Source of the DNA: Ruaniaceae bacterium KH17
GTDB taxonomy: Bacteria; Actinomycetota; Actinomycetes; Actinomycetales; Actinomycetaceae
Assembly (NCBI GenBank): GCA_900199505.1
Contig: FZQV01000026.1
Coordinates: forward strand, 1-36,048
DNA: 36,048 bases
Direction of reading: 5' to 3'
The position numbers were made by a program, and so were the translations under genes. Under the pieces are notes generated by a model that was not told the DNA's origin, made no database searches, and was given only the letters and a program-made list of their open reading frames with translations. Positions within the stretch are counted from its first letter, which is position 1. Every line of letters begins with the position of its first letter. Shown here piece by piece: positions 33,887 to 36,048 of the stretch.

Positions 33887-34107
33887 GCAAGCCGGAATTC
33901 GCAGACATCGAGAAGCTCTCCTATGAGGAGGCGCGCGATCAGCTCATCGAGGTGGTCCGCACACTGGAGCAAGGAAACGCTCCGCTGGAACAGTCCATGA
34001 AGCTCTGGGAGCGTGGGGAGGCGCTAGCGGCCCACTGCCAAAAATGGCTAGACGGCGCGCGCACGCGCCTCGACGAAGCCGGGAAGGCCGCCGCGTCCGA
34101 GGACTGA
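33883..34107 (+). CDS. xseB: Exonuclease VII small subunit
   Basis: 74 residues, all helical: IEKLSYEEARDQLIEVVRTLEQGNAPLEQSMKLWERGEALAAHCQKWLDGARTRLDEA. The L-E-x-G segment, the K-L-W-E-R-G-E segment and the helix end are the XseB signature. Several small subunits bind each XseA to form active exonuclease VII. The ATG shares its bases with the xseA stop (ATGA), so translation is coupled. A 76-bp repeat follows 24 bases after the stop. Confidence 0.96.
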   Translation: MSKPEFADIEKLSYEEARDQLIEVVRTLEQGNAPLEQSMKLWERGEALAAHCQKWLDGARTRLDEAGKAAASED

Positions 34108-34131
34108 CCTGCGGGCCAGACGATCGAGGCA

Positions 34132-34207
34132 CGGGCGGCTCGGGAGTCTTCGCGGGACCGTCAGAGCGTCCACCGCCAGGTGAGCGCTGGTCCACGAAGA
34201 GCTCGCG
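34132..34207. repeat. 76-bp dispersed repeat, copy 1
   Basis: Starts CGGGCGGCTCGG and differs from 35968-36043 at about seven of 76 positions without any gap. It lies between the convergent xseB and phoH-type stops. The minus-strand translation (RSDGPAKTPEPPV) is kept only partly between copies; no gene is recognised. Confidence 0.85.
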
Positions 34208-34275
34208 CAGCACCCGCGCCTGGTGCGCGACGCACGATGGTTTCGTCTCCGCCTACGGCTCCGCTCAACCCACGG

Positions 34276-35619
34276 CTAGTCGAGGAGGCTCGTCACCAGG
34301 GCGGCGATCGCCGAGCGCTCGGAGCGGGTGAGGGTCACGTGCGCGAAGAGTTCGTTGTCCTTCAGCTTCTCGATCACGGCGACGACGCCGTCGTGGCGGC
34401 CCACGCGGAGGTTGTCCCGCTGGGCGACGTCGTGGGTGAGGACAACCTTCGAGTTCTGACCCACACGCGAGAGCACCGTGAGTAGCGTGTTCCGCTCCAG
34501 CGACTGCGCCTCGTCCACAATCACGAACGCGTCGTGGAGCGAGCGCCCGCGGATATGAGTGAGTGGCAGTACCTCAAGCTGACCTGAGGCGAGCACGTGA
34601 TCCACCACCTCGGGCGAGACCAACGCTCCGAGCGTGTCGAACACGGCCTCGGCCCACGGGTTCATCTTCTCGGCTTCGGTCCCCGGCAAGTACCCAAGCT
34701 CCTGCCCTCCGACGGCGTACAGCGGCCGGAACACAACCACCTTTCGGTGCTCCTGCCGCTCGATCACGGCGTCCAGCCCGGCACAGATCGCCAGCGCCGA
34801 CTTCCCGGTTCCCGCGCGCCCACCGAGTGAGACAATCCCGATCCCCGGATCCAATAGGTGCTCGATCGCCACCCGTTGCTCCGCCGAACGCCCGCGCACG
34901 CCAAAAACCTCACGGTCCCCGCGCACCAGTGCGATCCGGCCATCCCGGGTCACACGCCCCAGTGCCGAGCCGCGCGGCGAGTGCAGGATCACGCCGGTAT
35001 GCACCGGCTGCCCGGCCAGAGCGCCAGGTGTCGCCACATCCTCAATCAGCAGACCTCCGTCGGCAAAGAACTGCGCCATCTCACTCTCGGTAAGCTCCCC
35101 GTTCGTCATGCCCGTCCAGCCGGACTCGATCACCTGCTGCGCGCGGTACTCCTCCGCCTGAATGCCAAGCGACGCGGCCTTCACGCGCATCGGCAGGTCC
35201 TTTGAGACCACTGTGACGTGCTCGCCCTCCGCCGAGAGATTCGCCGCGACCGCGAGAATGCGCGTGTCGTTGTCACCCAGCCGCAGCCCGCTCGGCAGCA
35301 CCGAATCGCTGGTGTGGTTGAGCTCCACACGCACGCTTCCGCCGTCGGGCCCCACAGGAATTGGCGCATCCAGCCGGCCGTGCATCATCCGCAGATCGTC
35401 CAGCATCCGCAGCGCCGTGCGCGCGTAGTAGCCGAGTTCCGGGTGATGGCGCTTCGCCTCCAGTTCCGTCACCACCACGACCGGCAGAACGACGTTGTGC
35501 TCAGCGAAGCGCAGAATCGCGTTCGGATCGGACAGCAGAACTGACGTATCCAGGACGTAGGTGCGCAGCGCGGTGGGCGCGAGCTCCTCGATCAGTTCCG
35601 TTTCAATGAGCTCGGTCAC
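34276..35619 (-). CDS. PIN-PhoH fusion ATPase (PhoH2/YlaK type)
   Basis: 447 residues. The N-terminal PIN nuclease domain has its acidic residues in YVLDTSVLL (Asp24), VVTELEAKR (Glu52), LGDNDTRIL (Asp117 and Asp119) and VVSKDLPMR (Asp141). The PhoH P-loop ATPase follows, with [10 protein letters not shown] (266-275, Walker A), [12 protein letters not shown] (Walker B, about 370) and [13 protein letters not shown]. Mycobacterial PhoH2 of this layout unwinds and cleaves RNA. The start is a GTG with GGAGGT five bases upstream. It is convergent with xseB. The 429 bases upstream have no gene but hold two repeat families. Confidence 0.94.
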
Positions 35620-35804
35620 CGGGTACCTCCGTGCCGTCTAGGGGTCTGGTACTGCCGACGCTACGGCACCACCCACCTCACTCCACTCGCGACACACCCG
35701 GGAACGTGACCCCGTTCACATTCCCGAAACCTTCCCGACGGCGCCCGCTCACCCGCGCGGACCCGCTTCGGCCCCCAGTCCACTCCTCCCCGGCACCGCC
35801 CGTG
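35620..35804. other. Upstream region of the phoH-type gene
   Basis: Together with the arrays below this is a 429-base gene-free stretch to the window end. These first 185 bases show the GGAGGT ribosome-binding site of the phoH-type gene, and nothing else recognised. Confidence 0.5.
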
Positions 35805-35936
35805 CGTTTGCCACTCACGTGAGTGGCAAACGTCCGACAAGAGGAGCGTGAGCGGGCTTTTCGCACTCACGTGAGTGGCAAACGCTCGGATCGGGGCGCA
35901 TGAGCGACCTTTTCGCACTCACGTGAGTGGCAAACG
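35805..35936. repeat. Palindromic array with 52-bp period
   Basis: A 21-base block (first 20 bases CACTCACGTGAGTGGCAAAC) is repeated exactly at 35812, 35864 and 35916, 52 bases apart. Each contains the 14-base palindrome CACTCACGTGAGTG. Copy 1 is extended to a perfect 28-base palindrome (35805-35832: CGTTTGCCACTCAC plus its reverse complement). The 31-base spacers end alike (TTTTCG) and share TGAGCG, so the unit is a diverged tandem repeat. Function is unknown; it may be an array of binding sites. Confidence 0.85.
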
Positions 35937-35967
35937 TCCGCGAGCTCGCGGCAGGGAGCGCACGAGG

Positions 35968-36043
35968 CGGGCGGCTCGGAAGTCTTCGCGGGACCGTCAG
36001 AGCGTCCACCGTCAGGTGGGCGCAGGTCCAAGTAGAGCTCGCG
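35968..36043. repeat. 76-bp dispersed repeat, copy 2
   Basis: Second copy of the element at 34132-34207, about 90% identical, same orientation, same length, just before the window end. The copies bracket the phoH-type gene. Confidence 0.85.
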
Positions 36044-36048
36044 AGGTG

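Follow-up and report, generated by a model that had tools for sequence, protein, structure and literature searches.

Dispersed palindrome arrays with a fixed 52-bp pitch: a probable, previously undescribed type of spreading repeat associated with a bacterial nuclease family

Arrays of palindromic sites in the genome of Ruaniaceae bacterium KH17 appear to belong to a type of bacterial spreading repeat that has not been described before. The arrays are dispersed and keep a constant pitch, sites stand on both sides of an orthologous nuclease gene in two bacterial families, and a common pitch extends over a clade of that nuclease. The association of the repeat arrays with the nuclease family is well supported. 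The reading that we favour, with some reserve, is that of a dispersed repeat resembling REP/REPIN elements but served by a nuclease with AbiEi-like and Vsr-like parts instead of a RAYT, in which the geometry of the bound protein would set the pitch and cutting would spread the units. The window (the whole stretch of DNA analysed, 36,048 nucleotides) lies on contig C55 of a 2.72-Mb assembly of 72 contigs. The initial observation made in a preliminary description of this window is sound, and its meaning is larger than first proposed.

The array in the window spans positions 35801-35940 and consists of three 36-bp dyad sites at a 52-bp pitch, as delimited by their positions, the identity of the units and the 73-site profile described below. 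Three copies of a 21-base block, CACTCACGTGAGTGGCAAACG, follow one another in exact 52-bp steps, with their first bases at 35812, 35864 and 35916. Site 1, placed by the profile at 35801-35836, is a perfect palindrome over 28 bp (35805-35832), as the preliminary description had reported together with the exact spacing. The palindrome is perfect over 14 bp only in sites 2 (35853-35888, core 35864-35877) and 3 (35905-35940, core 35916-35929), both of which were located by core scan and profile. Two 16-bp spacers separate the sites (35837-35852 and 35889-35904), and these are unconserved across arrays in the profile. The earlier contrast of a constant block with diverged spacers held for the block; the spacers differ yet are related, and a comparison with the first 52-bp unit gave identities of 75% for the second and 69% for the third. 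In the window alone, a search with up to 3 mismatches was not decisive, yielding 4 matches compared with a mean of 2.1 in shuffled windows.

The preliminary description had proposed a genome-wide search for copies of the palindrome and their neighbours. This search recovered 51 exact copies of the 14-mer core CACTCACGTGAGTG, well beyond a chance result when compared with 0 for the reversed pattern, and 30 non-redundant arrays with many unrelated neighbours. Four of the 51 cores were contig-end duplicates; 46 of the remaining 47 lie in arrays, and 1 stands alone beside the nuclease gene. With an array defined as at least two sites at 52 bp, leaving the centre of the core free and allowing one mismatch, the 30 arrays hold 73 sites, distributed as 21 pairs, 7 triplets, one array of four and one of six. 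The spacing hardly varies: 43 of the 44 gaps below 400 bp between core-like sites measure 52 bp, and the other measures 209 bp. The overlap of these 30 arrays with called genes nowhere exceeds 80 bp. Loci L040, L041 and L082 at contig ends were dropped as duplicates (42, 1401 and 560 bases common to other contigs), as were L185 and L186, which repeat L084 and L085. Selection or recent spread had been offered as the explanation for the block, and in outline this agrees with a dispersed family in which core and spacing are fixed. The opposing possibility, a simple dispersed repeat present in hundreds of neutral copies, was correct as to dispersal; the sites, however, number 73, are arranged in fixed-pitch arrays and are accompanied by one nuclease gene.

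Many contigs end in or near arrays (at L020, L024, L030, L040, L041, L079, L081, L082 and L083 and at the end of the window), and the count of sites may for this reason be too low. The final 47 bases of the window are identical to the initial 47 bases of contig C18. If the two contigs join, the following site (L018:71) lies 156 bp further on, exactly three pitches; the two 52-bp positions within the gap hold no recognisable site (8 and 11 mismatches of 12), and the array falls between phoH and a gene of the EPSP synthase family (PF00275).

A 52-column profile of the 73 sites gave the 36-bp dyad consensus CG..C.TTTSSCACTCA-NN-TGAGTGSSAAA.G..CG. Counted from the dyad centre, the conserved positions are CG (18, 17), C (14), TTT (12-10) and CACTCA (7-2), while the central dinucleotide is variable (CG in 52 of 73 sites) and the 16 bp between dyads show little conservation. 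Spacer identity averages 78% within arrays and is 31% between arrays (highest pair, 94%), a distribution that fits tandem duplication after an old dispersal. A CRISPR array was rejected because the arms vary between sites and the spacers are alike within an array (0.78, compared with 0.31 between arrays). The parS site of ParB-parS systems is likewise a palindrome with a TCACGTGA centre. Identity with parS was rejected on the grounds that the two central bases vary, that 52-bp arrays occur on many contigs and that the arms are unlike those of parS.

Among 213 genomes of the family, the paired motif with up to 2 mismatches was found in one, namely the KH17 genome itself. An exact scan of one genome per species over 84,980 species, a collection from which the KH17 records may be absent, returned 17 loci in four Ornithinimicrobium species only. 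These loci retain the core, the CG and the C, with other bases in place of TTT. The gaps below 400 bp at the 17 loci and at two orthologue loci measure 52 bp in 31 cases and 51, 53 and 166 bp in one case each; the 53-bp gap spans undetermined bases, and L136, which repeats L053, was left out of the count. One array locus among the 17 is common to two Ornithinimicrobium species, and the exact pattern may miss others. A plasmid- or phage-borne repeat was rejected: the exact pair motif had 0 matches in IMG/VR, and a protein search of plasmids gave 4 records, all below 31% identity.

The arms of the sites were examined for pairing across the dyad and between facing arms. No variable arm position among the 73 sites paired significantly above expectation, and several paired below it (position 13, 13 of 73 compared with 22.8); the p-values are rough, since sites within one array are not independent. 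Only the central dinucleotide paired above expectation (56 of 73 compared with 49.6). The lack of compensatory pairing in the arms speaks for recognition of half-sites in double-stranded DNA over a hairpin. An RNA or cruciform hairpin, serving as terminator or mRNA stabiliser, was therefore rejected as very improbable, even though the palindromes are intergenic, the central dinucleotide pairs in excess and arrays in Ornithinimicrobium lie at 3' gene ends. Such hairpins also account poorly for the constant distance between separate palindromes and for the placement of arrays at 5' ends in the KH17 genome, and a comparison of window positions 34000-36048 with Rfam, at a limit of E 0.1, gave no match. 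By the same anatomy, namely conserved dyad positions, constant pitch and arms without compensatory pairing, the sites would suit a DNA-binding protein, as had been anticipated.

Arrays adjoin many unrelated genes. In the window, the neighbour is a PIN_4-PhoH gene on the minus strand (34276-35619, assigned by domain match), which is not part of the proposed system; counted from its longest start, the array begins ~180 bp upstream. This position had been put at ~190 bp, which is close to the measured value; given the variety of genes beside other arrays, the place beside PhoH carries no special meaning, and regulation specific to phoH was rejected. Rough GC-based gene calls showed that, of the gene ends adjacent to arrays, 33 of 50 in the KH17 genome are 5' ends and 27 of 35 in Ornithinimicrobium are 3' ends.

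When the proteins encoded beside arrays were compared between the KH17 genome and Ornithinimicrobium, three matches were obtained. Only one was strong (59% over 328 residues), and this was the nuclease; the weak matches reached 39% over 71 residues and 27% over 349. These results bear on an alternative that we regard as unlikely while giving it real weight, in which the AbiEi-like protein is chiefly DNA-binding and the arrays are operators or chromosome-organising sites with a host function and no mobilising activity. Operators would suit a dyad with conserved half-site positions and unpaired arms, as well as the constant phasing of sites, and the array locus common to two Ornithinimicrobium species could be read as such a site. 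The 5' excess in the KH17 genome points the same way, but the 3' excess in Ornithinimicrobium points the other, and a host role would not predict that the nuclease alone matches strongly between the two lineages. Further, 73 copies of a 36-bp motif in a single family lineage are hard to explain without copying.

The nuclease gene of the proposed system lies outside the window, on the minus strand of contig C49 (G000:C49:11665-12570), and was assigned by the sites on both of its flanks, an arrangement found in both the KH17 genome and Ornithinimicrobium. In the KH17 genome, two sites follow its 3' end and one lies at its 5' end, before the start used yet inside the longest open frame. Its neighbours match DnaB and an AAA_18 domain, and the interval from DnaB to the nuclease contains a frame of 88 residues for which no match was obtained. 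Orthologues 58-62% identical were present in all three Ornithinimicrobium genomes searched, and each is flanked on either side by arrays with a pitch of 51-52 bp. In a tree of 65 homologues, from which stretches with stops or of fewer than 180 residues had been dropped, the KH17 protein nests within Ornithinimicrobium with support of 100/97. This placement suggests horizontal transfer of the nuclease gene into the KH17 lineage. Although the nuclease nests in this way, the placement of arrays differs between the two.

The N-terminal part of the nuclease is AbiEi-like, with a best PADLOC AbiEi match of 7.7e-14 and a Pfam AbiEi_1 match of only 0.085, below the cut-off, and it probably binds DNA. 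The protein thus resembles AbiE toxin-antitoxin systems in this part, but differs from them in its fused C-terminal nuclease and in having no AbiEii toxin gene adjoining it in the KH17 genome. The C-terminal part is Vsr-like, matching REase_MTES_1575 at 7.3e-9, just under the curated cut-off (the copy in genome G052 is above it), and the protein also matches DUF559. REase_MTES_1575 is a Vsr-type restriction endonuclease domain according to excerpts of PMC3710099. In-frame stops interrupt the matched stretch in 11 of 56 homologues, which suggests turnover. These 11 were left out of the alignment, and among the 45 aligned homologues the E-x-D-G and H columns are conserved in 40 to 45 sequences. 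A profile built from 15 homologues matched two PDB entries, 3hrl (2.1e-5) and 3r3p (0.0043, 'Mobile intron protein'), the second of which we take to be I-Bth0305I.

These matches and the conserved acidic and histidine residues relate the nuclease domain to the EDxHD homing endonucleases, among which I-Bth0305I is the nearest enzyme with described behaviour. In contrast to a homing endonuclease, the nuclease gene lies between whole copies of its presumed site and does not interrupt one, and that site occurs in numerous dispersed copies. According to part of PMC3943268, I-Bth0305I acts on a target of nearly 60 bp, on which it forms a dimer. A dimer of this kind would explain a pitch set by the size of the protein.

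To extend the comparison to other genes, homologues of the nuclease were sought and found in 32 of 59 genomes, including KH17; when 396 genomes of the order were searched, 22 of them, KH17 again included, gave a match at 1e-40 or better. An initial listing of palindrome pairs was too noisy, and a flank test was used instead, in which the repeat common to both flanks of a gene was scored against the 99th percentile of swapped flanks. The sample comprised 50 of the 85 listed homologues (30 including the KH17 gene and 20 of the next best), and the controls, taken from the same 20 regions of the same genomes, were 27 non-nuclease genes for this test and 66 flanks for the test of tandem shifts described below. 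A shared repeat above the 99% null was detected at 29 of 50 nuclease genes compared with 1 of 27 controls (Fisher p 1e-6), under a null whose two highest scores are two congeneric locus pairs. The other 21 homologues had no shared flank repeat above this null. The KH17 gene is among them; its single 5' site lies in the stretch taken as gene. In most rows inspected, the flank repeats differ from gene to gene, and some congeners share theirs. With seed counting in the flanks, observed scores could not be told apart from those of the null, and this approach only suggested the pitch that was later tested.

This pitch recurred among the close homologues. At 24 such loci, leaving out the KH17 gene and L186, the best tandem shift was 50-52 bp in 21 of 48 flanks, whereas among the 66 flanks of control genes it fell in this range once (p 8e-9). 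Any tandem signal was present in 27 of the 48 flanks (6 of the 27 at a shift other than 50-52 bp), in 13 of 66 control flanks (one at 51 bp) and in 7 of 200 shuffled flanks. The unit sequences differed among ten inspected loci of the close clade, with the exception of L201 and L205, which are near-copies on the tree and have the same unit. When the 50-52-bp label was mapped on the tree, 4 changes were required compared with 12.8 in shuffles, and 18 of the 19 proteins with this pitch fell in one clade of 28 rows (support 99/93), in which the remaining rows comprise 3 at a different shift and 7 lacking any signal. Distant homologues showed many other tandem shifts, perhaps with one pitch per clade; L104, L105, L114, L117, L118 and L122 have flank tandem pitches of 31-32, 36-38 and 40 bp.

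The same results make it quite unlikely that the repeat is a non-autonomous element, a MITE or REP moved by another enzyme, with the nuclease gene as bystander or passenger. In favour of this alternative, REPs of the CGTC type without a dedicated transposase have been described in sections of PMC3733652. A bystander gene would not, however, be expected to carry shared flank repeats so much more often than control genes, to have a pitch in common with one nuclease clade or to occur jointly with the motif in two families. A MITE is recognised by terminal inverted repeats and target-site duplication; here the inverted half-sites span 50 bp, and no empty site was found.

The favoured reading, a repeat served by the nuclease, places the arrays closest to REP/REPIN elements. 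GTAG-type REPs are tied to one transposase family. In excerpts of PMC3116915 and PMC3733652, REPs and REPINs are dispersed extragenic palindromes for which a doublet with preferred spacings is the proposed unit, and the RAYT gene is a single copy near its own repeats, with distinct repeats for each enzyme. The KH17 repeats are likewise dispersed and extragenic, 21 of the 30 arrays are pairs, and doublets stand at a preferred spacing with a variable spacer and enzyme-specific sequences. As with RAYTs, a single-copy enzyme gene is flanked by its own repeats (at the KH17 gene, its 3 orthologues and 29 of 50 homologues). The differences are that the array-flanked gene encodes a Vsr-like endonuclease with an AbiEi-like part and not an HUH/Y1 tyrosine transposase, that the 52-column profile of the 73 sites contains no GTAG or CGTC tag, and that the arms of the sites do not covary, whereas compensatory changes are described for REPINs in part of PMC3116915. 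Since the array-flanked gene does not encode an HUH transposase and the sites have no tag, the system was not classed with RAYT/REP.

The most likely mechanism is mobility of the repeat. We infer binding, cleavage and cleavage-driven spread by the nuclease from the arrangement of genes and sites. The cognate enzyme would be the product of the single-copy chromosomal gene, in which the AbiEi-like part is fused to the Vsr-like endonuclease (REase_MTES_1575/DUF559). A dimer of this enzyme may recognise half-sites CG..C.TTTSSCACTCA in a fixed geometry, giving the pitch of ~52 bp. Repair or copying after a nick or cut would then duplicate units in tandem, and units could occasionally be seeded elsewhere in the genome, a role also ascribed to RAYTs in the case of REPINs. 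An enzyme that cuts its sites would cut beside its own gene, and nicking, regulation or binding without cutting must therefore be assumed.

A wider claim is advanced tentatively, as one slightly more apt to fail than to hold: the arrays may represent a categorically new and widespread class of repeats in Actinomycetota that spread themselves, in which the geometry of the AbiEi-Vsr enzyme fixes the pitch (50-52 bp in one clade, other lengths elsewhere), the recognised sequence is rewritten in each lineage, each enzyme seeds its own palindromes, and enzyme and repeats move together between families. Should a repeat population similar to that of REPINs be maintained by a nuclease with a different fold, such a lifestyle would have arisen more than once. 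The large actinobacterial gene families annotated as 'DUF559/AbiEi' would, if this is true, gain a testable job, and a fixed pitch with a changing sequence would permit direct matching of enzymes to sites and offer a route to the evolution of specificity. A literature search, with subscription journals and preprints mostly outside its scope, found no published link of palindrome arrays to AbiEi/DUF559 nucleases; by title and abstract, the publications on DUF559 and palindromes concern other subjects.

Finally, the units of other nucleases were sought away from their genes. The unit flanking one nuclease of genome G040 is present there as 16 + 16 half-sites (up to 3 mismatches), whereas 7 other genomes, one of them from a congener, have none; its half-sites form 15 inverted pairs, spanning 57 bp in 14 cases and 56 bp in one. 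Dispersal was weak in G052, with 13 matches at up to 3 mismatches compared with 4 for the reversed pattern; of the 13, 4 lie at the nuclease gene. For the unit of L208, a 400-kb sample of G413 contained no array, and 19 weak matches compared with 9 for the reversed pattern. The unit of G039 has 25 half-sites in that genome, 14 in its congener G057 and 0 or 1 in five other genomes, with 8 inverted pairs of 46 bp in G039 and 4 in G057. A 400-kb sample of G342 contained two arrays of three units at a 51-bp pitch, away from the nuclease gene. Additional Ornithinimicrobium homologues at L137, L138 and L140, 43-48% identical to the KH17 protein and in two cases bearing an in-frame stop, have different flank repeats (at L137, for example, CCCACTTCGG...CCGAAGTGGG), and one genome may thus hold several nuclease-repeat pairs.
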